IMG/VR virus record: IMGVR_UViG_3300040801_001224
Span: 264,097 to 328,096 of that record
Length of the DNA: 64,000 bases
Reading direction: 5' to 3' (one strand)
Source: a virus
Position 1 is the first letter of the stretch; every line of letters starts with the position of its first letter. Made by a program: the position numbers and the translations under genes. The notes under the pieces were generated by a model. That model was not told where the DNA came from and made no database searches. It worked only from the letters and a program-made list of their open reading frames with translations. Of this stretch, positions 1-37,820 are shown piece after piece.

Positions 1-153
1 CTACTGTTTGATAATCGAACACCATCCTATACGGAAATATCAGAGCATGTTGAGGAGAACTATTCAATGACGTCCTTCTCATACATGATTGAGGAACCTA
101 CCGAATATAATGGTCTGGTAAATCCTGGTATAGTGAGGGTAATTCAACAATGA
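1..153 (+). CDS. C-terminal part of a hypothetical protein
   Basis: Frame 1 is open from the window edge to TGA at 151-153 and gives the last 50 residues of a protein (ending NPGIVRVIQQ). The start lies outside the window. It shares an ATGA overlap with the next gene, which supports translation in an operon. I do not recognise the family. Confidence 0.6.
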   Translation, partial: LLFDNRTPSYTEISEHVEENYSMTSFSYMIEEPTEYNGLVNPGIVRVIQQ

Positions 154-332
154 AATTCCAAGTTACTGTAATAGAAAGCGAACGTGGCTGGGGTCAAAAG
201 ATTGACGAAGTCCGTGAGTTCAACAGTGCTGACAAAGCATGGAAATTTTACGATGAAGTAAACAGCAGAAATACAGAACGTACTGCTCCAGACATATACT
301 GGCAAGCACAGCCGCCAGTAAGAATAGAATAA
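150..332 (+). CDS. small hypothetical protein, 60 aa
   Basis: The ATG at 150 overlaps the stop of the upstream gene (ATGA), so translational coupling is likely. The product is short and soluble, with an N-terminal strand (KFQVTVIE) and a central W-rich helix. Two bases after its stop the tRNA array begins. No family was recognised. Confidence 0.6.
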   Translation: MKFQVTVIESERGWGQKIDEVREFNSADKAWKFYDEVNSRNTERTAPDIYWQAQPPVRIE

Positions 333-333
333 T

Positions 334-409
334 AGTCCCGTAGCTCAGTCAGGAGAGCGCAGAGCTGATAACTCTGAGGTCGCAGGAGCAAAGCCTGCCG
401 GGACTACCA
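334..409 (+). tRNA. tRNA-Ile (anticodon GAT)
   Basis: Acceptor stem 334-340/399-405 is fully paired. The anticodon stem CAGAG/CTCTG frames loop CTGATAA. CCA is encoded at 407-409. First visible member of the array. Confidence 0.93.
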
Positions 410-416
410 ATTTAAC

Positions 417-491
417 GCCGAGTGGTCTGGATGTTTAGGTGCTGGTCTGCAAAACCATGTTAACAGGGTTAGATTCCCTGACTCGGCTCCA
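417..491 (+). tRNA. tRNA-Cys (anticodon GCA)
   Basis: Acceptor 417-423 pairs with 481-487. The anticodon loop is CTGCAAA. The T-loop is TTAGATT, slightly off the TTCRANN consensus. Discriminator T and encoded CCA at 489-491. Confidence 0.88.
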
Positions 492-492
492 A

Positions 493-569
493 GCCCCTAT
501 AGCTTAACTGGTTAAAGCGTCGAGCTCATAACTCGGGGAGTCCTTGTTCGAATCAAGGTGGGGGCACCA
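493..569 (+). tRNA. tRNA-Met or lysidine-type tRNA-Ile2 (anticodon CAT)
   Basis: Acceptor 493-499/559-565 pairs, the anticodon loop is CTCATAA, and CCA is encoded. A CAT anticodon can be Met or, after lysidine modification, Ile(AUA). The sequence alone does not separate these; an Ile(GAT) gene lies just upstream. Confidence 0.88.
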
Positions 570-576
570 ATTTTTT

Positions 577-734
577 TAACTTGTGCCGGAACTGGTATAC
601 GGGGGTGTGGTCTCAGTCAATATGAATAGGGTTGTGAATAAAGAATAGCAACTCTTGTACCCAGGGCGAAAACCACCAGGCGGTAAGCAGTACAACGCAA
701 AACGCCATTGTAGGTTCAAATCCTACCAAGTTAA
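577..734 (+). ncRNA. oversized tRNA-like element
   Basis: A perfect 7-bp acceptor (TAACTTG 577-583 with CAAGTTA 727-733) and a perfect 5-bp T-arm (710-714/722-726, loop TTCAAAT) flank a D-arm-like start. About 110 nt then lie where a 17-nt anticodon arm should be. The insert contains complementary pieces GTGGT/ACCAC and GGCG/CGCC. No CCA is encoded, unlike the neighbouring tRNAs. It may be a tRNA carrying an insertion, a degraded tRNA, or a separate tRNA-mimic RNA. No anticodon can be assigned. Confidence 0.45.
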
Positions 735-806
735 TTATGCGCGGTCCACGTTCCTCGCTGTAACTTTTGTTACATAGGTTGTGATTATGGCGGCGCACCA
801 TTTTAT

Positions 807-880
807 AGGGTCATAGTGTAATGGTAACACCCGAGATTTTGATTCTCGTATTCCAGATTCGAGTTCTGGTGACCCTGCCA
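807..880 (+). tRNA. tRNA-Gln (anticodon TTG)
   Basis: Acceptor AGGGTCA 807-813 pairs with TGACCCT 870-876. The anticodon loop is TTTTGAT, with G73 and encoded CCA. The 70 bases before it end in a GCGCACCA string that could be a relic of another tRNA 3' end. Confidence 0.9.
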
Positions 881-909
881 ATTTTACGCAGTTCGTGGTA
901 AATACAGTT

Positions 910-1296
910 ATGTGTACCCTGACGAACTTTTGTGTATTAGATGACATCGACGGCATCACAATCATATGTTTAACAGACGATATGAGTCAACAAGATGCCA
1001 TGCTTCTTATCGATCACTTGAGGGAACACGAACTGTACCATTATCGTCTGTTGGATTTTAATCAGTATCCATGTCAGATGTCTTCAAAAGACATTGAAGC
1101 ACTTGCTGAATACGACAAGAAGTTTCCAGAAAAAAACTATGGTGCTCTGATTGCTAAAGACAACCTAACATATGGTTTAATGAGAAAATATGCGGCCCAT
1201 CGTGAAATGGATGATCTAGCAACTATACGTGTATTTAGGACCATGCGTGAAGGCATAGCGTGGTTAAAAAAGAAAAGACACGATCAAGATAAATAA
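910..1296 (+). CDS. SpoIIAA/STAS-like small protein, copy 1
   Basis: About 128 aa. I chose ATG 910 over an upstream GTG at 895 because it aligns with the start of the next gene, its tandem paralogue. Both share Y-x-Y-R-L-[LF]-D-F-[ND], then DYDKKFPEKNY, ALIA-D, and a C-terminal VFRTMREGIAWLKK. The ending resembles SpoIIAA-like (STAS-fold) proteins that finish with VF-x(4)-EA-x-WL. The fold call is tentative and the role unknown. The stop TAA lies inside the late promoter of the next gene. Confidence 0.6.
   Translation: MCTLTNFCVLDDIDGITIICLTDDMSQQDAMLLIDHLREHELYHYRLLDFNQYPCQMSSKDIEALAEYDKKFPEKNYGALIAKDNLTYGLMRKYAAHREMDDLATIRVFRTMREGIAWLKKKRHDQDK
1288..1295 (+). promoter_or_regulatory. late-type promoter GATAAATA, leaderless
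   Basis: GATAAATA ends exactly 5 nt before ATG 1301. It overlaps the stop codon of the upstream paralogue, so the second copy can be transcribed independently. Confidence 0.6.
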
Positions 1297-1300
1297 TACT

Positions 1301-1684
1301 ATGCTAATACATGACTTATACGACTTTAACTATGTCGATGGTATTCTTATGACTACCCTTAAACATAGCCCGACACTTGAGACAATCAGACAATTGGTTG
1401 ATTATCAGATCAAGACAGACCGTTATCGTTATCGTTTATTTGATTTTAATGGTTTTACTCCTGCTGAAATGAGGGCAAGTGAAGTCAGAAGATTAGCAGA
1501 CTATGATCGAGCATATCCAGAAGAAAGTTACTCAGCTATCATAGCTGATGACGCACTATTGTTTGGCATTGAACGCATGTTTGAAACCTACAGAGACCGC
1601 AGTGGTTATTCTCGAGTAAGAGTATTCAACGATAAAGAAAATGGTCTAACCTGGCTTAAATTACTACAAGCCAATAATTCTTAA
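1301..1684 (+). CDS. SpoIIAA/STAS-like small protein, copy 2
   Basis: 127 aa, tandem paralogue of the gene at 910. Shared blocks include RYRYRLFDFNGF, ADYDRAYPEESYSAIIADD and VFNDKENGLTWLKLL. It has no Shine-Dalgarno and starts directly behind a late-type promoter, which predicts a leaderless transcript. Function unknown; a STAS-like fold is an inference from the C-terminal pattern. Confidence 0.62.
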   Translation: MLIHDLYDFNYVDGILMTTLKHSPTLETIRQLVDYQIKTDRYRYRLFDFNGFTPAEMRASEVRRLADYDRAYPEESYSAIIADDALLFGIERMFETYRDRSGYSRVRVFNDKENGLTWLKLLQANNS

Positions 1685-1702
1685 AATCTTTTGAAAAAAA
1701 GG

Positions 1703-1731
1703 TTGACAAACCCATTATACTCTAGTATAAT
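1703..1731 (+). promoter_or_regulatory. sigma70-type promoter for the giant RNA
   Basis: TTGACA 1703-1708, 17-nt spacer, TATAAT 1726-1731, all consensus. No coding region follows; the predicted start near 1738 opens an 870-nt non-coding stretch. Confidence 0.8.
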
Positions 1732-1737
1732 ACAATT

Positions 1738-2605
1738 CAAAGTTAAGCAATGTCGCATATCGACGATAAGGCACTGAAAGGTGTCGAAGGATGGGAATCC
1801 AACAGCCCATCACCAGCAATGGTAGAGGTATGCAAGCCGAGACTCCAATAAGATATCAGTCATGCTGGTATTAGGAGACAAAGGCTCTCTTAGGGAAGTA
1901 CCCCCAGGCCAACGGTGAGGGGCGAAAGTAACAGGTGAAGCTGACTACCTAGGGTTCAAAGAGCTAAGTTGACAGAGTCAAAGGGTAGTGTTACTTGTAC
2001 AAGACTTAGCGGTCGAGTGCTGTGACGCAGTCTTATAGGTAGTGTCCACAACCAGGGCATAATATCTAGAAAGACAACTGAAAAGTAACCTTAGCGGGTG
2101 AAACAGTATTCGGTGTAGCGTATTCTGTACTCCAAAAGAGTATGGACCGTTTTAGAGGCGCACATCGAGGTTGGTTTAAGTTAGCTCAATTGGTTAGAGC
2201 AACGGCATTTTGGAGCCGTGGGTTCTTGGTTCAATTCCAAGACTTACATACAAAAACGCAAAGACGCCTCTACGTAGTAGTAACGATTAAATGACTTAAT
2301 TGTCCGTACACTCCGGTGAATACGGAATAGGTTGAACTCGCAAGGTGACGCCTAGTTTGTTTGAAGTCGCACATTGGATTTAGCGATCCTTAACTGCTCG
2401 CAAGGCAGATGGAACACTGACAGCAGAAACGACTACTATAAAAGTGTAAACGCCAGCACTATAAAATGGGCAGTCATGCTTGATACCGAAAGACGAGACC
2501 ACGGTCTGTCCAAGGGGAGTAGGGCTTAACTAGCAAGGTCGCACTTGTTAGGTACGAGTTCCGAATGATCAAGTGTAATACGTCCTAACTCTCAGACGTA
2601 TCTAA
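1738..2605 (+). ncRNA. giant structured RNA with embedded tRNA (GOLLD-like)
   Basis: There is no credible ORF over about 870 nt, yet the stretch has a consensus promoter and many local hairpins. Examples are GATGGG/CCCATC near 1793, CTGC/GCAG at the CTGCTCGCAAGGCAG motif, and CCGTA/TACGG around 2304-2325. An 8-bp perfect helix, TAGAGGCG 2153-2160 with CGCCTCTA 2265-2272, holds a whole tRNA in its loop. A 7-bp hairpin (ATACGTC 2578-2584/GACGTAT 2595-2601) closes the 3' end. Known background: GOLLD RNAs are about 0.8 kb, occur in phages near tRNAs, and some carry an internal tRNA. Assignment to GOLLD is by these features, not by a covariance model. Confidence 0.72.
2175..2248 (+). tRNA. tRNA-Pro-like (anticodon TGG) inside the giant RNA
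   Basis: D-arm GCTCAATTGGTTAGAGC and T-arm CTTGG-TTCAATT-CCAAG are canonical. The acceptor 2175-2181/2242-2248 has one T/C mismatch. The anticodon stem ACGGC/GCCGT encloses an 8-nt loop (ATTTTGGA), one base more than normal; TGG follows T33 in the most natural reading. CCA is not encoded. It sits in the loop of the 2153-2160/2265-2272 helix. Confidence 0.7.
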
Positions 2606-2658
2606 TTTATCATTTAGGCAAAAGTATTCATAAAGTTTTCAGTGTTAAATTTAAGATA

Positions 2659-2666
2659 GATAAATA
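2659..2666 (+). promoter_or_regulatory. late-type promoter GATAAATA
   Basis: GATAAATA 22 nt upstream of tRNA-Leu(TAG), behind the giant RNA. It would let the following tRNAs be transcribed late. Confidence 0.45.
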
Positions 2667-2687
2667 ACACTGTACTTAATAAGTAAT

Positions 2688-2774
2688 GCCGAGGTGGAGG
2701 AACTGGTAGACTCGCGGTCTTTAGGTGTCCGTTCCATATTTGGAGTGTGGGTTCGACTCCCACCCTCGGCACCA
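2688..2774 (+). tRNA. tRNA-Leu (anticodon TAG)
   Basis: Class II tRNA of 87 nt. Acceptor GCCGAGG/CCTCGGC, anticodon loop TTTAGGT, a long variable arm, T-arm GTGGG-TTCGACT-CCCAC, encoded CCA at 2772-2774. The anticodon stem has one T/T mismatch. Confidence 0.9.
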
Positions 2775-2790
2775 ATTGAAAAGTTTTAAT

Positions 2791-2866
2791 GCCACTATAG
2801 CTCAGCTGGTAGAGCGCCACACTTGTAATGTGGATGTCCCGTGTTCGATTCATGGTGGTGGCACCA
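2791..2866 (+). tRNA. tRNA-Thr (anticodon TGT)
   Basis: Acceptor 2791-2797/2856-2862 pairs with one G-T wobble. The anticodon loop is CTTGTAA and CCA is encoded at 2864-2866. Confidence 0.92.
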
Positions 2867-2994
2867 AACATAATGGTCCTGTTCCTATAATAGCAGGTAT
2901 TGGTGGTAGAAATGTGTAAACGGTTTAAGGGCACCACCCTTCCTTAAACTCCGGACGATACGTAACCGGCCATAAATTTAAGGAGAATATTAAG
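2867..2994 (+). other. spacer with hairpin between tRNA-Thr and tRNA-Ala
   Basis: No ORF or tRNA. An 8-bp hairpin GTTTAAGG 2923-2930/CCTTAAAC 2942-2949 is the only clear structure. Similar hairpin-bearing spacers follow other tRNAs in this array (3953-4067, 4142-4275, 11091-11188). They may be processing or stabilising elements. Confidence 0.35.
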
Positions 2995-3071
2995 GGGGCG
3001 GTAGCTCAATTTGGGAGAGCACCTGTTTTGCAGGCAGGCGGTTGCGGATTCAAGTTCCGCCCGCTCCACCA
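2995..3071 (+). tRNA. tRNA-Ala (anticodon TGC)
   Basis: Acceptor GGGGCGG 2995-3001 pairs with CCGCTCC 3061-3067. The anticodon stem CCTGT/GCAGG holds loop TTTGCAG. T-arm GCGGA-TTCAAGT-TCCGC, encoded CCA. Confidence 0.9.
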
Positions 3072-3108
3072 GTCCGACTCAATAAAACTCCACCAAAATT
3101 CCTATATA

Positions 3109-3116
3109 GATAAATA
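3109..3116 (+). promoter_or_regulatory. late-type promoter GATAAATA, leaderless
   Basis: Ends exactly 5 nt before ATG 3122 of the HNH endonuclease. Confidence 0.6.
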
Positions 3117-3121
3117 CTAAT

Positions 3122-3952
3122 ATGATAGGAAAATGCTCATGTGTTATATGTAAAAAACAGTACTCTGGAAAGGGGATACACACCCATGCCGACAGAACTC
3201 ATGGTGACGAAGAGACAAAAGCCAAATATAGTTCAGGATATAATGGCAGATACAATGATCCAGAACATATGAAAAACTTAAAAAAGTCATTAAAAAAGTT
3301 TTACGACAAAGAGTTAGGCCCTAAAAAAACATATAATGTTTCTTGCCATAAGTGTGGTAAAGATTTCGATGTAACCGAAAGAGAAAATCAATTTCCGTCT
3401 AAAGAAAAATATTTCTGTTCTGCAACTTGTAGAAATACTAGGTCGCATACAGAAGCCACAAAACAGAAAATAAAAAAATCACTCAGAAAATATAATGGGC
3501 CTGAAAAAATATATGAAAAGACATGCCCTTGGTGTAGTAAAATTCACACTACTAAGGAAAAAAATAAAAAATTCTGCTCGCGAGATTGTGCCACAAAACA
3601 TAAATCGGCAGAAGCCAGGAAACATCGTTCGGCATATAAGAACTACAGGGCAGATTGCGAATTTAGGTTTAATCTAAAAGATTATCCAGAAGAATTTAAT
3701 TTCGCACTTATTGAAGAGCATGGATGGTATAGTGCGGCCAATAGAGGAAATAATCTATATGGTGTGAGCCGAGATCACATAGTAAGTGTGAAATACGGCT
3801 TTGAGAATAATATAGATCCAGCTATTATATCTCATCCAGCAAATTGCCAGTTAATGATACATTCGGACAATGTATCAAAATATACGAATAACGATTTAAC
3901 AATCGACCAGCTTTTAGAGAAGATCGAAATCTGGAATAATAAATACATTTAA
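3122..3952 (+). CDS. HNH homing endonuclease with zinc fingers
   Basis: 276 aa. The N-terminal two thirds carry three Cys-rich fingers: CSCVICKKQY with H-x(3)-H near residues 5-28, VSCHKCGKDF with FCSATC near 74-100, and KTCPWCSK with FCSRDC near 133-153. The C-terminal nuclease part shows SRDHIVSVKYG followed by HPANCQLM and a late Lys, matching HNH enzymes. These are free-standing homing endonucleases that nick or cut phage DNA and spread into related phages; DNA recognition presumably uses the fingers. It lies between tRNA-Ala and tRNA-Gly and has its own leaderless late promoter. Confidence 0.85.
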   Translation: MIGKCSCVICKKQYSGKGIHTHADRTHGDEETKAKYSSGYNGRYNDPEHMKNLKKSLKKFYDKELGPKKTYNVSCHKCGKDFDVTERENQFPSKEKYFCSATCRNTRSHTEATKQKIKKSLRKYNGPEKIYEKTCPWCSKIHTTKEKNKKFCSRDCATKHKSAEARKHRSAYKNYRADCEFRFNLKDYPEEFNFALIEEHGWYSAANRGNNLYGVSRDHIVSVKYGFENNIDPAIISHPANCQLMIHSDNVSKYTNNDLTIDQLLEKIEIWNNKYI

Positions 3953-4067
3953 CAACACCTTCTAAGCCTCTGTTTACATGCTCACCCCGGGAGGTTACTT
4001 AAACGGCTCTCCAAGCCGCTCACGCTGAACAATTAGAGTTCATATGTCATGCTGTGGAGAGTTATTT

Positions 4068-4141
4068 GCGTCCATAGTTTAGTGGTAAAACGATAGCTTG
4101 CCATGCTGTAGTCCCGAGTTCGACTCTCGGTGGACGCTCCA
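4068..4141 (+). tRNA. tRNA-Gly (anticodon GCC)
   Basis: Acceptor GCGTCCA 4068-4074/TGGACGC 4131-4137, anticodon loop TTGCCAT, T-arm CCGAG-TTCGACT-CTCGG, T73 and encoded CCA. Confidence 0.92.
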
Positions 4142-4275
4142 AACACGATGGTGGTCCGGGCTGATAAACTGGACGCCACCCAGTGTATTGTGGTGGATAG
4201 GCTGGAACCCTTTTGGAGCATGGTCCCAAAACTCTGAATAGAACGATCCTCTGCTCACATCACATAGTTTATATT

Positions 4276-5301
4276 ATGATAAAATACATTCTATTACTCT
4301 TATTATTGGTTGGTTGCTCAGGTGATGATAACCCTGAGCCTGTTACTGAATTCGGCTTTACTATGCTTCAGCCCAATTCATACCAATTACAGTGGCCTGA
4401 AGATCCAGATGCCACATATTACGTCATAGAAACAAACACAACGTCCAATATACTTAACATTGACTTATCAACTGTTGAATTGACTGATAACAAATATGTG
4501 TTTGAGTGGGATGTATTATTCAACGGCTCAGTACATCATAGGATAACGGCATGTACGATGAGTGGCTGTAAGGAGCCTGGAGAATGGTTATTAATATTTG
4601 AAGTGCCCCAATTTCCGGATACGCCATATCAGATAGACGTTCTAGCTGTATATGACAATAGAGCGTTTGATATAGACAACGGTATCGCAACTAAAATAAA
4701 CAGGGACTTTGCTAAAATCAACGACATACTGCTCAATAACAATTTAGAGAGCTATGTAAAGTTTAACTTGGTGACAATGCGTCTGGACAGAACGTTTGAT
4801 TGGCCACGTGACAACACAAGTGCTAATGAAGCGTTAATAAACGATCCTGAAATACAGGCATTGCGTGATGATGCTGGTGCAGATATAGTTATAGGTATAA
4901 ACACTGATCCGGGTTTCCCTGGTGGTGGTACCGGCAAAATGTATATGGATTCGGATAGAAAACAATTCTTCACGTTTTACACATACACCGAAATAGAACA
5001 ACAGGCATACGCCACAGTAGCACAATATACGTTAGGTTCGGAAGATCACGTACTCTTACATGAGATGCTACACACATTTGGGTTACAGCATGACCTACAG
5101 ACAGCGTTCATAGACTTCAATGTCAGTGCTGAATATTCTTATGCTCATGGTTTGCAGAGTGAACGGGAATGTACTATTATGGCAAGGGCGTGTCCACGTA
5201 ATCTAATACTAGCAGATGAACCCACTAATACCGGTGGTTTTTCATCAAGTAACAAATTGCGTTTTATGGAAACAATTCCTGTTATAGCAGATTTTAGATA
5301 A
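4276..5301 (+). CDS. lipoprotein with metzincin-type metalloprotease domain
   Basis: 341 aa. ATG 4276 is chosen because it gives a clean lipoprotein signal (MIKYILLLLLLVGC, lipobox LVGC) and removes 21 unlikely N-terminal residues. Residues about 25-120 look like a fibronectin/Ig-type beta domain. The catalytic domain contains LLHEMLHTFGLQHD, an exact HExxHxxGxxH zinc site followed by D as in metzincins. Several Cys pairs (for example CTMSGC and CTIMARAC) fit an exported protein. It probably acts at the host outer membrane or periplasmic face after lipidation; the substrate is unknown. Envelope remodelling, receptor shaving or superinfection exclusion are possible roles. No strong ribosome-binding site is seen. 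Confidence 0.75.
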   Translation: MIKYILLLLLLVGCSGDDNPEPVTEFGFTMLQPNSYQLQWPEDPDATYYVIETNTTSNILNIDLSTVELTDNKYVFEWDVLFNGSVHHRITACTMSGCKEPGEWLLIFEVPQFPDTPYQIDVLAVYDNRAFDIDNGIATKINRDFAKINDILLNNNLESYVKFNLVTMRLDRTFDWPRDNTSANEALINDPEIQALRDDAGADIVIGINTDPGFPGGGTGKMYMDSDRKQFFTFYTYTEIEQQAYATVAQYTLGSEDHVLLHEMLHTFGLQHDLQTAFIDFNVSAEYSYAHGLQSERECTIMARACPRNLILADEPTNTGGFSSSNKLRFMETIPVIADFR

Positions 5302-5306
5302 AACTA

Positions 5307-5335
5307 TTGACAATCCCACTATCCTGTAGTATAAT
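5307..5335 (+). promoter_or_regulatory. sigma70-type promoter, leaderless
   Basis: TTGACA 5307-5312, N17, TATAAT 5330-5335. ATG 5342 follows after exactly 6 nt. Confidence 0.8.
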
Positions 5336-5341
5336 ACCTAT

Positions 5342-5677
5342 ATGAAAGTTACAGGAACGCAAACTAAAGAAGTTAAGATTGAAATTAGTGATTATCAGAT
5401 TGAAAAGATCATTAGAAAATCCAACTTACCCATTAAAGAATACGCAAATATATTAGAATCTAAATATATTAGAGAAGTATTCAAGGAAGATGGTTACAGC
5501 GAATCCAACTACCCAGTATATGATTATGAACGTAAAAAATGGGAAATATGGGTTGAAGCATATCATGGTAGTGATTGGACTAATCCTGTTCGTGATGCAA
5601 CAGAGAATGAAATTGCTGTAATGAATGCTATTCAAGAAATTAGAAATGTGTTCCTCGCAGAAGAGTTAATTAAATAA
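5342..5677 (+). CDS. hypothetical protein, 111 aa
   Basis: First gene of a three-gene unit driven by a consensus promoter whose predicted start is the ATG itself. Charged and soluble; the middle holds a W-rich segment (YERKKWEIWVEAYHGSDW). No family recognised. Its stop overlaps the next start as TAATG, so reinitiation is likely. Confidence 0.7.
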   Translation: MKVTGTQTKEVKIEISDYQIEKIIRKSNLPIKEYANILESKYIREVFKEDGYSESNYPVYDYERKKWEIWVEAYHGSDWTNPVRDATENEIAVMNAIQEIRNVFLAEELIK

Positions 5678-5880
5678 TGGATAGAATACCAACCATAAAT
5701 CATACGGACCGTCCGGTTGGCCATGATAAATATGATGACATGCTATTCCGTACTCTAGATGAATTTATGGAAATGCATGATCAAGACTATCTCACAATAT
5801 CTAGATTTGATGGTGAGCTAGTTGCTCGTGTAGGTATTGAAGATTTATTTAAGTACATGAAAGAGTACATGGATCGGTAA
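5677..5880 (+). CDS. hypothetical protein, 67 aa
   Basis: Sits between two TAATG overlaps (5675-5679 and 5878-5882). Acidic N-terminal half; C-terminal segment VARVGIEDLFKYMKEYM is probably helical. Unknown function. Confidence 0.65.
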   Translation: MDRIPTINHTDRPVGHDKYDDMLFRTLDEFMEMHDQDYLTISRFDGELVARVGIEDLFKYMKEYMDR

Positions 5881-6065
5881 TGTTCTTTTTAGAGTTACCT
5901 AGACCATGGTACACCTATACAGTCAAAGATCTAGGAGTGGTTGAAAGTACTGTTAAAAGGAATAGAAAGATTGTTTTTACGGCCATGATGGAGAGTGATA
6001 ATCCTGAATGGTTGAGAAAGTTAAAGCAACAGGAAAGGTTGCTTGAAAGATTAAAGGGTGCGTAA
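5880..6065 (+). CDS. hypothetical basic protein, 61 aa
   Basis: Coupled to the upstream gene by TAATG. The last ten bases of this gene (6056-6065) are also the 5' acceptor and first bases of tRNA-Asn, so its C-terminus is constrained by tRNA sequence. Processing of the tRNA would cut this mRNA at its 3' end. Helical, Lys/Arg-rich C-terminus. Confidence 0.6.
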   Translation: MFFLELPRPWYTYTVKDLGVVESTVKRNRKIVFTAMMESDNPEWLRKLKQQERLLERLKGA

Positions 6066-6130
6066 CTCAGTGGTAGAGTAGTCGGCTGTTAACCGATAGG
6101 TCGGATGTTCGAATCATCCCGTGCCCGCCA
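6056..6130 (+). tRNA. tRNA-Asn (anticodon GTT)
   Basis: Acceptor GGGTGCG 6056-6062/CGTGCCC 6120-6126 with wobble pairs, anticodon loop CTGTTAA, T-arm GGATG-TTCGAAT-CATCC, G73 and encoded CCA. Its 5' end overlaps a coding sequence by 10 nt. Confidence 0.9.
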
Positions 6131-6134
6131 AATT

Positions 6135-6213
6135 TTGAAGTACCCTAGAAGCAAGGGAAACCAAGTCGGAGACATTTTATATGTTGGTCAGGCGACAGGC
6201 GAGGGTACTTCAA
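6135..6213 (+). ncRNA. 79-nt closed hairpin RNA upstream of cheW
   Basis: A 12-bp perfect helix TTGAAGTACCCT 6135-6146 with AGGGTACTTCAA 6202-6213 closes a 55-nt loop region containing smaller hairpins. It starts 5 nt after tRNA-Asn and ends 20 nt before the cheW start. It could be a processed small RNA or a cis-acting leader for cheW; no riboswitch class was recognised. Confidence 0.55.
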
Positions 6214-6232
6214 TTTTATATTAAGGTAGAAC

Positions 6233-6655
6233 ATGCAGATATTAACATTCATAGAAGACAGGGAAGCGTATGCCATTGACATAATGCAGGTCAAAGAAAT
6301 TATACGTTTAGATGAAAGTGCTGTGCGTCCTGTGCCTGGTGAAGGACCAGAGCATTATGGTTTAATGTATTTGCGTGAGACACCAATCAGTGTATTTAAT
6401 GCCAACATTGTGTTAGGATTAGCCGACACTGAAATAACAGATGAAACCCGTATTATTATATTGGAAGACGACGGACAGTTATATGGATTTTCATGTGACT
6501 CAATACGTGAAATATATCGGGTAGATGAAGGGGATATACAGAACCCTGTGGAACGTAGTAGATTTATACGTGGGGTTATATACTGTAAGGAACGTGATGA
6601 AACAGTCGTAATACTGGATCACGAAAACTTATTTGAATCCTTTTCAGAAAGATAA
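6233..6655 (+). CDS. cheW: CheW-domain chemotaxis adaptor homologue
   Basis: 140 aa, essentially one CheW domain. ATG 6233 has AAGG 6 nt upstream. Family features are in order: YAIDIMQVKEIIR (residues 12-24), VRPVPGEGPEHYGLMYLR with the Gly-Leu-x-x-Leu-Arg turn near 40, RIIILEDDGQLYGF near 80, CDSIREIYRVDE, and FIRGVIYCKERDETVVILD toward the end. CheW couples chemoreceptors to the kinase CheA at the cytoplasmic array. A free-standing phage copy could compete with or rewire host signalling, for swimming or for a pilus (Chp-type) pathway. Gene context is tRNAs and a hairpin RNA, not chemotaxis genes, which points to acquisition from a host. Confidence 0.85.
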   Translation: MQILTFIEDREAYAIDIMQVKEIIRLDESAVRPVPGEGPEHYGLMYLRETPISVFNANIVLGLADTEITDETRIIILEDDGQLYGFSCDSIREIYRVDEGDIQNPVERSRFIRGVIYCKERDETVVILDHENLFESFSER

Positions 6656-6656
6656 T

Positions 6657-6713
6657 CGGGGTGTAGCTCAGTCTGGTAGTGTTCACTATTTGAGCAAATT
6701 TTTACTCCGACCA
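6657..6713 (+). pseudogene. 57-nt mini tRNA remnant
   Basis: CGGGGTG 6657-6663 pairs over 7 bp with TACTCCG 6703-6709, followed by A73 and encoded CCA. The start continues TA-GCTCAGTCTGGTA like a tRNA D-arm. T-arm and normal anticodon arm are missing, so a deletion of about 18-20 nt is likely. The late promoter of the HNH gene begins at the next base. Confidence 0.55.
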
Positions 6714-6721
6714 GATAAATA
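6714..6721 (+). promoter_or_regulatory. late-type promoter GATAAATA, leaderless
   Basis: Abuts the CCA of the mini tRNA and ends 5 nt before ATG 6727. Confidence 0.6.
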
Positions 6722-6726
6722 TATGT

Positions 6727-7326
6727 ATGGATTATAACGAATACATAAATGAAGATGGCACGTATACCTCTCCGAAAAACGGAAAAGTATATAAGTCAAA
6801 AAAAGCGTTAATATCGCATTTAAACTTTAAGAAATCTAAAACTACTGGATTCGCGGTAGTGAATAACACTAAAGTAAAATGTCAATATTGTGAGAAAGAA
6901 ACTACGCCACCGAATATTAAGAAGCATGAAGAATCATGTTATATGAATCCAAAAAATATTCGAGAATGTGTAGTTTGTGGGACGATCATTAAGAACAAGG
7001 AAAGTAAAGGAACTTGTTCACATGCTTGTTCAAACACGTATTACCGCCATGGTAAAGAAGGTGGAACGCAATATAAAACAGATGAAGAGCTTATATCAAG
7101 GAATAGATATCAAGACCTTTGTTTTAGGCACCATGGTAAAGAATGTATCGTGTGTGGTGAAAAAAAGATTGTAGCGGCACACCATATAAACCACGACCAC
7201 AATGATAATCGTGTAGAAAATTTAGTTCCTCTATGTCCGACGCATCATCAGTACATACACAGTAGGTACGCAGATGAAGTACAACCATACATAGATGAAT
7301 TTTTAGAAAAGTTAAACTCTCTGTAG
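6727..7326 (+). CDS. HNH homing endonuclease
   Basis: 199 aa. N-terminal region has a Lys-rich DNA-binding stretch and Cys/His fingers (CQYCEKE with H-x(4)-C, then CVVCGTI with CSHAC). The C-terminal HNH motif is classical: CIVCGEKKIVAAHHINHDHND, N-x-V-x-NLVPLCPTHHQYIH. Free-standing homing enzyme. Its end overlaps the acceptor of tRNA-Pro by 10 nt (7317-7326), and its promoter abuts a deleted tRNA, which suggests that insertion or drift of this gene damaged the tRNA beside it. Confidence 0.88.
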   Translation: MDYNEYINEDGTYTSPKNGKVYKSKKALISHLNFKKSKTTGFAVVNNTKVKCQYCEKETTPPNIKKHEESCYMNPKNIRECVVCGTIIKNKESKGTCSHACSNTYYRHGKEGGTQYKTDEELISRNRYQDLCFRHHGKECIVCGEKKIVAAHHINHDHNDNRVENLVPLCPTHHQYIHSRYADEVQPYIDEFLEKLNSL

Positions 7327-7392
7327 TGTAGTCTGGTAACACCCATGCTTTGGGAGCATGTATCTCAAGTTCGAATCTTGACAGAGAGACCA
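7317..7392 (+). tRNA. tRNA-Pro (anticodon TGG)
   Basis: Acceptor CTCTCTG 7317-7323 pairs perfectly with CAGAGAG 7382-7388. The anticodon stem CATGC/GCATG holds loop TTTGGGA; CCA is encoded. Overlaps the end of the HNH gene. Confidence 0.9.
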
Positions 7393-7399
7393 AAATTTA

Positions 7400-7476
7400 G
7401 GAACGGTAGTTCAGTTGGTTAGAATACCGGCCTGTCACGCCGGGGGTCGCGGGTTCGAATCCCGTCCGTTCCGCCA
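7400..7476 (+). tRNA. tRNA-Asp (anticodon GTC)
   Basis: Acceptor GGAACGG/CCGTTCC, anticodon stem CCGGC/GCCGG with loop CTGTCAC, T-arm GCGGG-TTCGAAT-CCCGT, encoded CCA at 7474-7476. Confidence 0.93.
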
Positions 7477-7503
7477 AATTTAACAACATAAGGAAATGAA
7501 ACA

Positions 7504-7836
7504 ATGAAATAGACTAAACCAACATTACGTTTGTGGAAATGGGGAGAAGATAGATTTTCCCATCTTGGATACAAAATATTCACAGTGTTTTACTGTAAGT
7601 ACTTTGACTTTTATATATTTAAATATCAACCAGGTGCCTATATACCAAAACACAAAGATCCAGGAAAATGGCATTACAGATTAAATTTTATATTTGGTGG
7701 TGATGGCAAGTTTATATGTAAAGGTGCGTTAATAAACACCAAGTACATAACACTGTTTAGAGCGGACAAGTATTACCATAAGACAACACCAACTTCCACG
7801 ACACGTTATGTTGTAAGTTTTGGTCTAAAGTTTTGA
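7504..7836 (+). CDS. 2OG-Fe(II) oxygenase-like protein with in-frame amber codon 3
   Basis: The only ATG with a good ribosome-binding site (AGGA 7491-7494) is at 7504, but codon 3 of that frame is TAG (7510-7512). The reading frame then stays open to TGA 7836. Without suppression, translation would have to begin at TTG 7531, which lacks a ribosome site. The product (about 109 aa) has H-x-D (PKHKDPGKWHYRLNFIF) and a distal His and Arg (KYYHKTT, RYVVSFG), the iron- and 2-oxoglutarate-binding pattern. Either the amber is read through, possibly by the CTA tRNA directly downstream, or this is a fresh pseudogene. Confidence 0.6.
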
Positions 7837-7903
7837 GCCATTGAGGCCAGCCTAAGGATTCTAAACCCAGAAGGCGCCGGTTCAAGTCCGGCATGGCTCA
7901 CCA
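7835..7903 (+). tRNA. atypical tRNA with CTA anticodon (candidate amber suppressor)
   Basis: Acceptor GAGCCAT 7835-7841 pairs perfectly with ATGGCTC 7893-7899; the T-arm GCCGG-TTCAAGT-CCGGC is perfect and CCA is encoded. Counting back from the T-arm with a normal 5-nt variable loop gives anticodon loop TTCTAAA, so positions 34-36 read CTA. The 5' half is defective: the D-loop is only about 2-4 nt and the 5' strand of the anticodon stem pairs poorly with CCCAG. Total is 69 nt, 5-8 short. It may be a decayed tRNA or a reduced suppressor. Confidence 0.5.
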
Positions 7904-7922
7904 AATTGTATAAGGAATGATA

Positions 7923-8192
7923 ATGGATAAATCATACGATATTTTAATTTATGGGCGACCGGGTTGTCCTTTTTGTACCCGAGCAGTTCAATTTGCAGAA
8001 GGTACATCAGAGTCAAATCCAAAGTTTAACTTTGAATACACTGATATCTGGAAAGAAGGCATCACAATGGAACACTTGAGTGAATGTGCAGGCAAAGATG
8101 TTAGAACAGTGCCACAGATATTTGCTAATGAAAAGCATGTTGGTGGCTGTGATGATTTTGAACGTTTCCTTATACAGGAAGATTTAATATAG
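7923..8192 (+). CDS. glutaredoxin
   Basis: 89 aa. ATG 7923 is preferred to 7917 because AAGGA abuts the latter. Thioredoxin-fold glutaredoxin with dithiol site C15-P-F-C18 after IYGRPG, the TVPQIF cis-proline loop, and the GGCDDFERF helix that binds glutathione. Likely reduces phage or host ribonucleotide reductase or protein disulfides in the cytoplasm. It follows the CTA tRNA by 19 nt. A second, divergent glutaredoxin is at 21779. Confidence 0.9.
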   Translation: MDKSYDILIYGRPGCPFCTRAVQFAEGTSESNPKFNFEYTDIWKEGITMEHLSECAGKDVRTVPQIFANEKHVGGCDDFERFLIQEDLI

Positions 8193-8193
8193 A

Positions 8194-8535
8194 ATATTTG
8201 CTCCTCGTTAAACACTAAGGTACCTGATGCGAGGCGAAGGGTTCAATTCCCGGGTGAGGACGTTGCACAACTATCCTTGCCTAGTACCAGAGCAAATTTT
8301 TTGATACTGAGATGTAAAAACATGCGTGACGAGAATCGCCCCTTAAATGGGCTTGGAGAGAGCGATTTCCCTTTCAGTATTAACTTTTTAATGCGTACAG
8401 ACCTCAAAGGTGTACCGCTGAAGCTTGGTCCAAGTAGACACGTAGAGCTTCATGTTGACTGGGTGAGAGGCCCTTTGCGTTGTAGGTAGGGATGCGGCCA
8501 CCGGCTTTGAGGAAACCTTCTACGCATTAATTTAT
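8194..8535 (+). ncRNA. about 340-nt structured RNA of unknown class
   Basis: Non-coding stretch between glutaredoxin and the next gene, with nested perfect helices. ATACTGA 8304-8310/TCAGTAT 8374-8380 encloses AATCGC 8334-8339/GCGATT 8362-8367 and the small hairpin ATGT-AAAA-ACAT. TTAATGCGTA 8388-8397/TACGCATTAA 8521-8530 (10 bp) encloses TCAAAG 8404-8409/CTTTGA 8505-8510 and TGAAGCT 8419-8425/AGCTTCA 8446-8452. The first 70 nt hold a T-arm-like GGG-TTCAATT-CCC and may be a degraded tRNA. No promoter is visible, so it probably derives from the array transcript. Confidence 0.6.
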
Positions 8536-8541
8536 TTTATT

Positions 8542-8805
8542 ATGAAAGAAATATACTTAGTTATAGCAGGCGTTGACCATGGACACTCATTCCTCATGGG
8601 TGCCTTCCCGGACCGGGATGAAGCACAGCGTTTACTCAATGAATTGGAATTTCACCAGAAAGTGGGCGTGGCACCTTCTGACATGCCTTACAGAGCTAAG
8701 TATTTCGATTATGTCTATATACACGAAACAACGTTATATGACAATCGCAAGCAATTGGAAGATTCGGCACAAGAGTTCGAACCAATTCCACCTTTTAGAA
8801 AATAA
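8542..8805 (+). CDS. hypothetical protein, 87 aa
   Basis: Begins 7 nt after the structured RNA, with no clear ribosome site. N-terminal strand KEIYLVIAGVDHGH, then a helix DEAQRLLNELEFHQK; ends in a Pro-rich tail. No family recognised. Followed at once by tRNA-Arg. Confidence 0.6.
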   Translation: MKEIYLVIAGVDHGHSFLMGAFPDRDEAQRLLNELEFHQKVGVAPSDMPYRAKYFDYVYIHETTLYDNRKQLEDSAQEFEPIPPFRK

Positions 8806-8810
8806 TTATT

Positions 8811-8888
8811 ACCCCTGTAGCTCAGTGGAATTAGAGCAAGCGGCTTCTACCCGCTCGGTCGGGAGTTCGAATCTCTCCGGGGGTGCCA
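8811..8888 (+). tRNA. tRNA-Arg (anticodon TCT)
   Basis: Acceptor ACCCCTG/CGGGGGT, anticodon stem AGCGG/CCGCT with loop CTTCTAC, T-arm GGGAG-TTCGAAT-CTCTC, G73, encoded CCA. Confidence 0.92.
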
Positions 8889-8896
8889 AACATTCA

Positions 8897-8904
8897 GATA
8901 AATA
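8897..8904 (+). promoter_or_regulatory. late-type promoter GATAAATA
   Basis: 22 nt before the lipoprotein ATG 8927; this one has a leader with an AAGGAG ribosome site. Confidence 0.5.
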
Positions 8905-8926
8905 TTAAAAACACAAGGAGAACGGC

Positions 8927-9832
8927 ATGAAACTAATCGTAATTTTATTCCTATCCTTATTCGTTGTATCCTGTGGGGGTGGAGGGAATAAGAGAGATGA
9001 TACCAGACAGCCTCCAGTAATACCACCGCAGAAACCCTTTGTGGAAATATTTCCTGAATACAGGACTTATTTAAAAATGTATGGAACCCAGGATCAAATA
9101 AACAAAAACTCATGGGTATTCACAAGTCATAAAATCGACTATGAAGAATGTGAACGAAACGACACATCTCCCTGTCGGAAGACCAAAAAGCTATATTACT
9201 ATGACGCAAACCATGTTCCTGGTCGTGAAACAAAATGGACTTTTAACTTAACTGTTAATAAGTATAACATAATTGATCCACCTTACTGGATTATCATATT
9301 CCAAGATTGGTTCGATTATGATCCGAATGATTTTACTCCATCAGGCGCACAAGGCGGTAATCCACCATTTCAGACATTGAAGCTAAAAGAGTTTAGGGGT
9401 GCCTTACATTTAGGTGTGTTCAACAACAGGTGGCAATGGAACTATGACTATAACAATCCATATAATCCAACCGACCCAAGTGCCAATGACATTGACAAGC
9501 GACCAGTAAATGAACTAACAGGTTCCATACCGTTAGTCGTTGGAAGAACGTATCCAGTTGAAATAATCATTAGAGATGGCATAACACTTGAGCGTGGCAG
9601 TGTACAGGTCAAGGTAAACGGTCGTCAGGTGAGCAACCAGTTTTACCGAACAAAGCCAGACAGATCTCCCCGCCCTGGTGCTGTTCAATTTGGACAATAC
9701 TGGGATAGAGAATACAATGGAAGAATTAATGGTTGTGTTGAAGCAACAGGCGAGTTAGAAAAGGACTGTAAGAGCAACACAGTAACTATAGAAAACTTCA
9801 GAGTATTTGAGCGGAACGCTTTAACACAATAA
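8927..9832 (+). CDS. lipoprotein with lectin/glucanase-like fold
   Basis: 301 aa. Lipoprotein signal MKLIVILFLSLFVVSC with the lipobox Cys followed by a Gly run. The rest is Trp/Tyr-rich beta sequence (WTFNLTV, WIIIFQDWFDY, ALHLGVFNNRWQW, VEIIIRD, GSVQVKVNGRQVS, GAVQFGQYWD). The layout resembles concanavalin-like jelly rolls of polysaccharide lyases such as the heparin-lyase group, but no catalytic set can be named. Late promoter plus AAGGAG. It would be displayed on the outer membrane of the infected cell. Confidence 0.6.
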   Translation: MKLIVILFLSLFVVSCGGGGNKRDDTRQPPVIPPQKPFVEIFPEYRTYLKMYGTQDQINKNSWVFTSHKIDYEECERNDTSPCRKTKKLYYYDANHVPGRETKWTFNLTVNKYNIIDPPYWIIIFQDWFDYDPNDFTPSGAQGGNPPFQTLKLKEFRGALHLGVFNNRWQWNYDYNNPYNPTDPSANDIDKRPVNELTGSIPLVVGRTYPVEIIIRDGITLERGSVQVKVNGRQVSNQFYRTKPDRSPRPGAVQFGQYWDREYNGRINGCVEATGELEKDCKSNTVTIENFRVFERNALTQ

Positions 9833-9852
9833 AAAAACATAAGGAGAACGTG

Positions 9853-10302
9853 ATGTTCGACGAAAGCAAATTAGCCGAACTTAAAGAAGCTATTCAAAAC
9901 TCAAGTAAGACTACAAAAGTTTATGTCGGTTCAGACAGCAAAAGAAACAAAGCAGGTAGAGTACGTTTCGCAACAATCGCAATTTTACATATAGATGGCA
10001 ATAAGGGTGGACAAGTGTTTAGCTTTATTGATCATGAAATGGATTATTCTCCAAATAAAAATCCACGCTTACGTCTTGTTATGGAAGCTTACAGAGCGGC
10101 TGATTTAGCGGCGGCTATCCTTCCTGAAGTTGGAGATCGTGACTTCGAAATACATCTTGACCTTAACTCTAATCCAGACTATAAGTCAAATACGGCTATA
10201 CGTGAAGCGGCTGGTTATGTATTAGGTATGACTGGCATCAAACCAAAAATGAAGCCCCAGGCTTGGGCAGCCAGCCATTGTGCTGACGTATACACCAAAT
10301 AA
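9853..10302 (+). CDS. RNase H-like protein of the YkuK/DUF458 type
   Basis: 149 aa. ATG 9853 preferred over the in-frame GTG at 9850; AAGGAG 6 nt upstream. The N-terminal VYVGSDSKRNKAGRVRFATIAIL matches the YkuK-type RNase H-like family (first acidic residue in GSDS). A second acidic cluster EIHLDLNSNPDYKSN and a C-terminal acidic position in SHCADVYTK fit a metal-binding nuclease fold. The substrate is unknown; RNA or R-loop removal is the likely guess. Confidence 0.65.
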   Translation: MFDESKLAELKEAIQNSSKTTKVYVGSDSKRNKAGRVRFATIAILHIDGNKGGQVFSFIDHEMDYSPNKNPRLRLVMEAYRAADLAAAILPEVGDRDFEIHLDLNSNPDYKSNTAIREAAGYVLGMTGIKPKMKPQAWAASHCADVYTK

Positions 10303-10324
10303 TTGTTTGTATTGAAGTCTAAGT

Positions 10325-10332
10325 GATAAATA
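10325..10332 (+). promoter_or_regulatory. late-type promoter GATAAATA, leaderless
   Basis: Ends exactly 5 nt before ATG 10338 of the GIY-YIG gene and supports that start. Confidence 0.6.
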
Positions 10333-10337
10333 AAAGT

Positions 10338-11090
10338 ATGGACAAACCATATCACTACGTTTATCGCATCACAAATCTCCTGGAGTCAAAACATTATTAT
10401 GGCTCCAGGAGTTCGATAAATAAACCACATGAAGATCTTGGAGTTGTGTATTTTTCGTCAAGTAGTGACGAGCAGTTCAAGAAGCTTCAGGTGTCACAGC
10501 CAGAAATATTTAAATATAAGGTAATAAAATCATTTAGTAGCAGAGAGGATGCGATTTTATTTGAAATAAAGTTACATAAAAGATTCAATGTCAGTAGTGA
10601 AGACAAGTTCTATAACAAAGCAATTCAGTTGACTTCTGGTTTCAGTAACTACGGAAATAAAGAGATAGGAGACAAAATTTCCGACAAAGCCATCGGCCGT
10701 TTTAAGGGGCAAACTTATGAAGAAATTTACGGTGAAAACAAAGCAACAGAACTAAGGAAATTGCGTTCTGAAAACATGAAAAGTCATTTGAAACAAAATC
10801 CAGGAATCAGAGACGGTGAAAAAAATCCAAATTATGGAAAAAAATGGAATGATGAAAAACGAAAAAAAATGTCTAAAAGACAACAGGGTGAAAACCACAC
10901 TCAATATGGTTACTTTTGGGTTACAGATGGCAAAATAAATAAAAAATTACCGCCGAACTCTGAAATACCCAACGGCTTCACAAAGGGAAGAACTTGGCCT
11001 ATTACACAATGTCCTCACTGTGGTTACGAAGGCCGTGGACCAAATATGAAAAGAATACACTTTGATAGATGTGAAGACAAAAATAAATAA
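10338..11090 (+). CDS. GIY-YIG homing endonuclease
   Basis: 250 aa. N-terminal catalytic module: HYVYRITNLLESKHYYGSR (variant GIY...YIG), with Arg and Glu further on (FEIKLHKRF). Two NUMOD3-type DNA-binding repeats follow (KNPNYGKKWNDEKRKKMS). A C-terminal zinc finger CPHCGYEG-x-H-x(4)-C closes the protein. The start at 10338 matches the promoter spacing rule better than the GTG at 10323. Free-standing homing enzyme beside a tRNA. Confidence 0.85.
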   Translation: MDKPYHYVYRITNLLESKHYYGSRSSINKPHEDLGVVYFSSSSDEQFKKLQVSQPEIFKYKVIKSFSSREDAILFEIKLHKRFNVSSEDKFYNKAIQLTSGFSNYGNKEIGDKISDKAIGRFKGQTYEEIYGENKATELRKLRSENMKSHLKQNPGIRDGEKNPNYGKKWNDEKRKKMSKRQQGENHTQYGYFWVTDGKINKKLPPNSEIPNGFTKGRTWPITQCPHCGYEGRGPNMKRIHFDRCEDKNK

Positions 11091-11188
11091 TTGCCCAATT
11101 AAGGGCGGGGGTCGTTTACACCAAACACCTTGAATGGTGACGGCCGGGGCATTGAAGGGGTGTCTGTACAAAGCCCTTCGCACTTTCT
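11091..11188 (+). other. hairpin-rich spacer before tRNA-Val
   Basis: GCCC-AATTAA-GGGC and CACC-TTGAAT-GGTG hairpins, no ORF and no intact tRNA. Function unknown. Confidence 0.3.
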
Positions 11189-11263
11189 AGTCCGGTAGCT
11201 CAGAGGCAGAGCACCTCGTTTACACCGAGGGGGTCGGGATCTCGGAATTCCCCCGGACTACCA
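11189..11263 (+). tRNA. tRNA-Val (anticodon TAC) with unusual T-loop
   Basis: Acceptor AGTCCGG 11189-11195/CCGGACT 11253-11259, D-arm GCTCAGAGGCAGAGC, anticodon stem CCTCG/CGAGG with loop TTTACAC, encoded CCA. The T-arm reads GGGAT-CTCGGAA-TTCCC and lacks the usual TTCRA in the loop, so function may be affected. Confidence 0.8.
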
Positions 11264-11271
11264 ATTTTTAC

Positions 11272-11279
11272 GATAAATA
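11272..11279 (+). promoter_or_regulatory. late-type promoter GATAAATA, leaderless
   Basis: Ends 5 nt before ATG 11285 and overlaps an alternative ATG at 11279. Confidence 0.6.
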
Positions 11280-11284
11280 TGAGC

Positions 11285-11881
11285 ATGAATACTCCTAACA
11301 CCATACTGTGTATGTTTTCCGGTGGATTAGATTCCACTGGCATGCTCTACCGTCTATTAACAGATCCAGAGTATGGTGAGTATAATATACATGTTCACCA
11401 CGTCAAGATGTGTAATAGAGAAAACCGCCAACAAGCAGAGTCGATTGCTGTTGAAAACATTATTGGATGGTTTCACAATAACGGCATGTCTAATTTTAGA
11501 TATACTGAAAACACCATTGATTTTGAATTCCTTAAACATGGAAACTTTCCCTGGGATTCGGATGTTACTAATTTTGTTGCCGGTAATATCGTTAAGAATA
11601 AGAAAAATACTTATAAGTATATCGCTTTTGGTAGAACTAAAAACGATACAAACAGGACTATTACGTCATTATCAAATGACATATTAGAAGGCGTCCTGAG
11701 AGGCCGTCCTGTTGAAAAAATATATCCTATAACTGACCTAACAAAGGAAGAGTTATGGGATTACCTTCCTGAGGAATTGCGGGAATACACGTGGTCATGC
11801 CGACGCCCCAAATATATTGACGGTGTCCCTACAGCATGTGGTCGCTGTGTTCCCTGCAAAGATCTAAAACATATCAAATAA
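11285..11881 (+). CDS. queC: QueC-like 7-cyano-7-deazaguanine synthase
   Basis: 198 aa. PP-loop SGGLDST at residues 12-18 binds ATP; a C-terminal zinc site SC-x(12)-C-x2-C-x2-C (TWSCRRP, ACGRCVPC) is typical of QueC, and the IYPITDLTKEELW block is also family-like. QueC turns 7-carboxy-7-deazaguanine into preQ0 with ATP and ammonia. In phages preQ0 can feed 7-deazaguanine DNA modification that protects against restriction. The partner genes folE, queD, queE and a transglycosylase are not in the window. Start 11285 fits the promoter spacing. Confidence 0.75.
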   Translation: MNTPNTILCMFSGGLDSTGMLYRLLTDPEYGEYNIHVHHVKMCNRENRQQAESIAVENIIGWFHNNGMSNFRYTENTIDFEFLKHGNFPWDSDVTNFVAGNIVKNKKNTYKYIAFGRTKNDTNRTITSLSNDILEGVLRGRPVEKIYPITDLTKEELWDYLPEELREYTWSCRRPKYIDGVPTACGRCVPCKDLKHIK

Positions 11882-11886
11882 ATTAT

Positions 11887-11960
11887 CCCCCGGCCAACTG
11901 GATGGAGCTCTGGCTACGAACTAGATGTGCGTGTAGGTTCGAATCCTACCTGGGGGGCCA
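11887..11960 (+). tRNA. tRNA-Arg (anticodon ACG)
   Basis: Acceptor CCCCCGG 11887-11893/CTGGGGG 11950-11956, anticodon loop CTACGAA, T-arm GTAGG-TTCGAAT-CCTAC, G73, encoded CCA. A34 would need deamination to inosine to read CGC. Confidence 0.88.
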
Positions 11961-11966
11961 AACAAT

Positions 11967-12043
11967 GCTGTCGTAGCCCAATTGGCAGAGGCGTGGGATT
12001 CAAAATCCCAATGTTGTGAGTTCGACTCTCACCGACAGTACCA
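11967..12043 (+). tRNA. tRNA-Leu-type (anticodon CAA) with short variable arm
   Basis: Acceptor GCTGTCG/CGACAGT, anticodon stem TGGGA/TCCCA with loop TTCAAAA, T-arm GTGAG-TTCGACT-CTCAC, encoded CCA. The anticodon would decode Leu UUG, yet the variable loop is only about 5 nt, whereas the other Leu tRNAs here are class II. Charging identity is therefore uncertain. Confidence 0.8.
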
Positions 12044-12049
12044 AACAAT

Positions 12050-12139
12050 GCCTAGGTGGTGGAATTCTGGTATACACATCGGGTTTAAATTTCGACGGCT
12101 GTAATGGCCATGAGGGTTCGAGTCCCTCCCTAGGCACCA
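12050..12139 (+). tRNA. tRNA-Leu (anticodon TAA)
   Basis: Class II, 90 nt. Acceptor GCCTAGG/CCTAGGC, anticodon loop TTTAAAT, long variable arm GGCTGTAATGGCC, T-arm GAGGG-TTCGAGT-CCCTC, encoded CCA. Second gene for this anticodon at 26743. Confidence 0.9.
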
Positions 12140-12142
12140 ATC

Positions 12143-12171
12143 TTGACACAACCACTCTTTTCCTGTACAAT
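12143..12171 (+). promoter_or_regulatory. sigma70-type promoter
   Basis: TTGACA 12143-12148, N17 with AACCACT, TACAAT 12166-12171. ATG 12201 follows with an AGGTG ribosome site. Confidence 0.75.
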
Positions 12172-12200
12172 ATAAACACAGTAAAAATATAGGTGAAACT

Positions 12201-37771: not shown

Positions 37772-37820
37772 AGTCCTAAGAATAGACTTGGGCAATCAAC
37801 CAATAAAGGGAGACTTTATT

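Follow-up and report, generated by a model that had tools for sequence, protein, structure and literature searches.

A probable GOLLD RNA gene in a 328-kilobase virus record, with a putative tethered tRNA mimic in its linker

We analysed a stretch of jumbo-phage DNA, the final 64 kilobases (kb) of the 328-kb IMG/VR virus record IMGVR_UViG_3300040801_001224 (hereafter the window), and found that the interval from 1738 to about 2601 is very probably a phage gene for a GOLLD RNA with a strong promoter of its own, whose linker holds a tethered mimic of transfer RNA (tRNA) and not a working tRNA. The presence of a tRNA inside GOLLD is already published, and tRNAs in the linker of this family (Rfam RF02032) were previously reported. 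Leaving aside the founding paper of 2009 and a mycobacterial paper of 2020, we found no description in the literature of a systematic loss of the acceptor, a maintained elbow or an exchange of modules among nearly identical cages. The features of the locus are listed below (nt, nucleotides; bp, base pairs).

1703..1731, + strand: sigma-70 type promoter TTGACA-17-TATAAT, matching the consensus at 12 of 12 positions
~1738, + strand: expected transcription start
1738..2109, + strand: GOLLD 5' domain, nhmmer profile match at 1765-2042 (E 1.3e-12)
2110..2598, + strand: GOLLD 3' domain, Rfam RF02032 in permissive mode, model 1-416 of 416, 81.8 bits, E 2.3e-21
2153..2160, + strand: 5' arm of a pseudoknot helix, TAGAGGCG, pairing exactly with 2265-2272 over 8 bp
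2175..2249, + strand: tRNA-like module in the GOLLD linker, from Rfam tRNA (49 bits), ARAGORN (2174-2251) and our own cloverleaf parser
2207..2214, + strand: 8-nt anticodon loop AUUUUGGA, from ARAGORN and our own parser, with U33 present
2257..2266, + strand: conserved linker end CGCAAAGACG, the boundary of module swaps in relatives
2265..2272, + strand: 3' arm of this pseudoknot, CGCCTCTA, pairing exactly with 2153-2160
2578..2601, + strand: GOLLD terminal hairpin, ATACGTC (2578-2584) and GACGTAT (2595-2601) with the loop CTAACTCTCA; family consensus UAAUCUCA

At the gathering thresholds of Rfam, the tRNA alone was reported at this locus and GOLLD was not. In permissive mode, the GOLLD model was matched from end to end, and the tRNA fell within the unpaired variable linker of the model. 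The score is below the 150-bit gathering score, which counts against membership; that value is a conservative curation cut-off and no structural feature. Membership was therefore tested independently with profiles that excluded the window. The profile of the 5' domain was built from the upstream regions of 71 relatives, and its runner-up match in the 64-kb window had an E of 1.3, while the best match in the reversed window had 0.71. The profiles of the 3' domain matched at 2119-2166 (E 8.1e-7) and at 2289-2539 (E 1.2e-19). Furthermore, the 5' domain and both parts of the 3' domain were collinear, and each was the one clear match in 64 kb. The relatives had been gathered from viral contigs and phage records, and most of those scored with Rfam were above the gathering threshold. 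The setting is also that of GOLLD, namely a phage origin with tRNA genes nearby (16 further tRNAs were called by ARAGORN in the window). By sequence comparison, the RNA is thus supported as a GOLLD, as had been proposed in a first-pass annotation made from the sequence alone, and it is a divergent member. It resembles RF02032 in the full-length match, the 5' and 3' domains, the pseudoknot, the UAAUCUCA-type hairpin and the tRNA-rich phage setting, but differs from it in the low score and in carrying a tRNA mimic with an 8-nt loop.

Other identities were tried. ROOL, the second family considered at the outset, is also a large, cage-forming phage RNA found near tRNA islands, but none of the Rfam matches in the window was to ROOL, with E values of up to 10 admitted, and this identity was rejected. 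An identity as transfer-messenger RNA (tmRNA) was also rejected; there was no covariance-model match in window positions 1-12500 at E up to 0.1, and ARAGORN found none. BLASTN search of the region against phages gave almost exclusively tRNA pieces, and a weak match to Xanthomonas phage XacN1 pointed to GOLLD. When a GOLLD from L125 was used as a query against phages, there were no matches. In addition, no GOLLD was found in bacterial genome contigs in the scan made, prophage GOLLDs being outside the sample.

The promoter, the gene-free stretch and the closing 3' hairpin described in the first-pass annotation were all confirmed. The sequence TTGACA-17-TATAAT at 1703-1731 was unique within 4.3 kb, and there was no open reading frame (ORF) of at least 60 amino acids between 1684 and 2614. 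Promoter-like sites also occurred about 380-600 nt 5' of the 3' domain in many GOLLD relatives. The full-length fold had an energy of -261.5 kcal/mol (z = -2.9 against 20 shuffles), from single-sequence folding, a method that can reveal neither the pseudoknot nor the complete cloverleaf. The first-pass annotation had placed the tRNA inside a perfect 8-bp helix. The exact pairing of this helix stood, and its role had to be revised. Its 5' arm at 2153-2160 is flanked by the two strands of a second helix, and the partner of this arm is on the far side of the linker. As the return strand of the second helix falls inside the 8-bp helix, the latter forms a pseudoknot arm rather than a plain closing stem. 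A corresponding helix of 5-13 bp, with many different sequences, was present in nearly all of 86 relatives, and its mean length was 9.4 bp in relatives compared with 6.6 bp in mismatched controls.

The module in the window has a D arm, an anticodon arm and a T arm, and its acceptor forms six of seven pairs with a mismatch at 2-71. It has no encoded CCA, unlike all of the 16 other tRNAs in the window, which end in CCA. Both this absence and the 8-nt anticodon loop had been claimed before and hold. Anticodon loops of 8 nt occur in frameshift-suppressor tRNAs. As to the earlier naming of the module as tRNA-Pro-like, the tRNA-like cloverleaf at 2175-2249 is confirmed and the Pro identity is uncertain, because the 8-nt loop allows more than one anticodon frame and tRNA-Pro(UGG) is already encoded by an ordinary gene at 7317. 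The closest relative of the module was another embedded module, that of L218, with 79% identity.

To describe the module across viral GOLLDs, we used 146 distinct GOLLD 3' domains and compared them with 655 free tRNAs from the same loci. The cloverleaf was located by its D, anticodon and T arms alone, and the acceptor was not used in finding it. A clear cloverleaf was found at the same place in 128 of the 146 domains. Linkers of 42-73 nt without a cloverleaf were present in 13 of the 146, and the remaining linkers were 81-115 nt long, mostly 81-94 nt. Acceptor positions 4, 5, 6 and 7 were paired in 96, 90, 91 and 97% of modules (41-70% with shuffled partners), with 4-5 pair types each. Positions 1, 2 and 3 were paired in 52, 38 and 55% (46, 36 and 44% with shuffled partners), and position 3 alone was clearly above the shuffles. 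Since the inner pairs are kept and the outer pairs are near chance, the acceptor is mostly a stub of 4-5 bp. A seven-pair acceptor was found in 8 of 128 embedded modules versus 534 of 655 free tRNAs, and at least one mismatch at positions 1-3 was found in 117 versus 87. CCA followed 1 of 128 modules but 622 of 655 free tRNAs, and the anticodon loop was not 7 nt long in 16 and 3 cases, respectively.

The other parts of the cloverleaf were retained. U33 was present in 121 of 128 modules, the D-loop GG and the T-loop TTC in 125 each, and A58 in all 128; the parser rewards GG and TTC equally in the embedded and free classes. Furthermore, the D, T, anticodon and inner acceptor stems remained paired through many double changes. 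When the modules were thinned to 82 lineages, these fractions were unchanged, and 73 of the 82 were nearest to another embedded module and not to any of the 655 free tRNAs. Thus, the modules form a family of their own. The commonest anticodons after thinning were GUU (20), CUU (13), UUU (9), UCU (6) and UAG (5), and there were nine 8-nt loops.

These results bear on whether an ordinary phage tRNA lies inside GOLLD, is excised by RNase P and 3' processing, receives its CCA later and takes part in decoding. The retained cloverleaf and U33, the six acceptor pairs of the window copy, the tRNA-Arg or tRNA-Leu annotations in phage records and the module of L082, which resembles a normal tRNA with CCA, would all fit such a tRNA. 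Against it stand the CCA count of one in 128 at loci where 95% of the free tRNAs encode CCA, the outer acceptor pairing near chance and the 8- and 6-nt loops. In addition, northern blots did not reveal a transcript of its own for the "pseudo tRNA" of a mycobacterial GOLLD (PMC6582537). We consider this explanation highly improbable, and a plain maturable tRNA was rejected with CCA nearly absent and outer pairing near chance. The earlier suggestion that the tRNA is a structural part rather than a decoding tRNA is supported by the same data, all but one of the 128 relatives being without CCA.

The module could also be a captured tRNA that is decaying without function in a linker free to vary. 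The linker is indeed the most variable part of GOLLD, and some linkers contain fragments only or nothing. Moreover, L082 and a second case, L073, have CCA and look like recent captures. However, decay is not expected to spare the stems kept through double changes, A58 and U33 while the acceptor end alone is lost, nor does it fit a linker length that is mostly within 81-94 nt. Thus, we regard decay as very unlikely. L073, the linker of the GOLLD at G042:C1:27904-28393 (L135), is a single case that looks like a circularly permuted tRNA. The T arm, ACTCCCC and CCA come first, TAAATTTAT is next, and GGGGAGT, the D arm and the anticodon arm (loop ATGATAA) follow. When it was rearranged to tRNA order, ARAGORN called it as tRNA-Ile(GAU), with all 7 bp of the acceptor formed and CCA present.

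A third explanation is that the module is a mere folded spacer, which would hold the arms of the pseudoknot in place and prevent the linker from spreading while the cage assembles. The place of the module between the two arms of a conserved pseudoknot and the tightly held length are what a spacer would predict. Nevertheless, the linkers of 42-73 nt retain the same pseudoknot without a cloverleaf, and a spacer does not require a conserved U33 or varied anticodon loops. This explanation seems unlikely to us.

The module can be replaced as a unit with no change to the cage. For instance, neither the flanks nor the 3' domains differ between L237 and L239, whereas their modules are 64% identical, which amounts to a clean exchange of the whole block. 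Between L249 and L260, almost the only differences are in the anticodon loop (ATTGATAA versus ATTTTGA) and at one D-loop base. Additional swaps were found in the pairs L231/L233 and L281/L320. As picking pairs by the similarity of their 3' domains biases towards a conserved cage, the test was repeated with pairs picked on the 5' domain. In these pairs, the mean divergence was 3.8% for the 5' domain, 8.8% for the 3' domain and 16.4% for the module, and in 14 of the 19 pairs the module was the more divergent of the latter two (one-sided p 0.03).

The same pattern was found in isolated phages, which removes metagenome assembly as an explanation. GOLLD with a module was present in Phaeobacter phage MD18, DSS3_MAL1, Mesorhizobium phage Cp1R7A-A1 and Sinorhizobium phage Phosso. 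All four modules have a shortened acceptor and no CCA, and three of the four are annotated as tRNA-Arg or tRNA-Leu. GOLLD without a module was present in Roseobacter phage DSS3P8, XacN1 and Vibrio phages D69 and D419. XacN1 (AP018399) has two GOLLD copies with identical scores, at 38570-38983 and 357365-357778, 319 kb apart, which perhaps lie in terminal repeats. The GOLLDs of D69 and D419 (L358 and L362) are unannotated or overlain by small ORFs labelled "hypothetical protein". DNA similar to the GOLLD region of D69 is present in about 290 Vibrio phage records. In addition, a tmRNA was observed near GOLLD in XacN1, MD18, DSS3_MAL1 and DSS3P8 (L122 1385-1804, L356 2041-2456, L357 1887-2303 and L359 1304-1690), and these four sites also match the Rfam permuted tmRNA model above its cut-off.

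The solved env-38 GOLLD is a hollow, homo-oligomeric RNA cage of 14 copies, in which the 5' domain is the cap and the variable linker points inward (PMC12286853). The RNA described here would be transcribed from the promoter at 1703-1731 and, by analogy with this homologue, would assemble into an oligomeric cage with the module in its interior. The module keeps its elbow (D and T arms) and its anticodon arm and would stay tethered. With no CCA and, in most relatives, no pairable outer acceptor, maturation, charging and decoding are not expected. The module may instead retain tRNA-binding host factors within or at the cage, as bait or as a docking site. Binding of host proteins that read the tRNA elbow and anticodon arm is the most likely function that we infer, and we propose it tentatively. 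Enzymes of tRNA-cutting defences that read the anticodon arm would be the best candidates, because the anticodon loops of phage tRNAs are argued to be shaped by such defences (PMC10264068) and because the anticodon loop of the module changes and the cage does not; the variety of anticodons would then track different hosts. As a general rule, viral GOLLD cages might carry an acceptor-less, exchangeable tRNA mimic with a diversifying anticodon arm, as a caged decoy or sponge for tRNA-cutting defence enzymes or other tRNA readers, and we offer this as a speculative possibility.

Alternatively, the tethered elbow and anticodon arm could occupy a tRNA site, so that ribosomes or translation factors would dock on the module and be held at the cage. 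GOLLD was reported to bind ribosomes in pull-downs, as cited in PMC12286853, and the elbow and anticodon arm are retained. However, the module offers the peptidyl-transferase centre no CCA end, an acceptor of 4 bp within an RNA cage fits the ribosomal A or P site poorly, and GOLLDs without a module exist. Thus, we judge ribosome docking to be quite unlikely, and binding of other host tRNA readers remains our preferred function.

Several known systems can be compared with the tethered mimic. The mycobacterial pseudo-tRNA is likewise a tRNA-like sequence within a GOLLD gene in a tRNA cluster, but it was reported as a pseudogene of one clade (PMC6582537), whereas the module here is maintained in 128 viral GOLLDs with covariation. 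In the bacterial Y RNA YrlA, a tRNA-mimic domain binds PNPase and the remainder tethers another protein (PMC8394870); YrlA differs in being 90-150 nt long, in retaining the D, T and acceptor arms and in working with Rsr. The tmRNA, which some of these phages carry, is also a large RNA with a tRNA-like domain, but it retains the acceptor and CCA and is charged, and the GOLLD module has lost both. Finally, the phage tRNAs that resist anticodon nucleases (PMC10264068) share anticodon-loop changes linked to tRNA-cutting defences, but they are free and decoding, whereas the GOLLD module is tethered and decoding is not expected.

Besides the low family score, some points weigh against the proposed tethered mimic and its function. 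First, with six of seven acceptor pairs, the window copy has a milder maturation defect than most of its relatives. Second, about 10% of GOLLDs have no module, and therefore the module is not needed for the cage. Third, the 146 domains were picked by sequence patterns that favour some lineages, and the Fisher tests of embedded versus free tRNAs ignore phylogeny. In addition, the anticodon skew (GUU, CUU, UUU and UCU) may partly reflect shared ancestry. The binding of defence enzymes is a candidate role.

Other observations were made in the window. At 584-738 there is a tRNA-like sequence with a 7-bp acceptor (TAACTTG/CAAGTTA), a D arm and a T arm. Its anticodon region is interrupted by a very long insert, and CCA is absent. 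It was called by neither ARAGORN nor Rfam, and it is possibly another tRNA-like RNA. Two adjacent small ORFs, at 895-1296 and 1301-1684, are apparently paralogous and lie between tRNA genes and GOLLD. Further away, at 36725-39317, there is an NAD salvage pair, in which a cytidylyltransferase/NUDIX protein (348 amino acids) is followed by a nicotinamide phosphoribosyltransferase (509 amino acids).

If most viral GOLLDs hold a tethered mimic with a reduced acceptor and varied anticodons, the question of GOLLD function would narrow to what reads the tRNA elbow and anticodon arm during infection, and this could be tested with phages of marine hosts that are cultured in the laboratory. Furthermore, some annotated phage tRNAs would not be tRNAs, and this would matter for the tRNA counts that are used to infer codon use or escape from defence.
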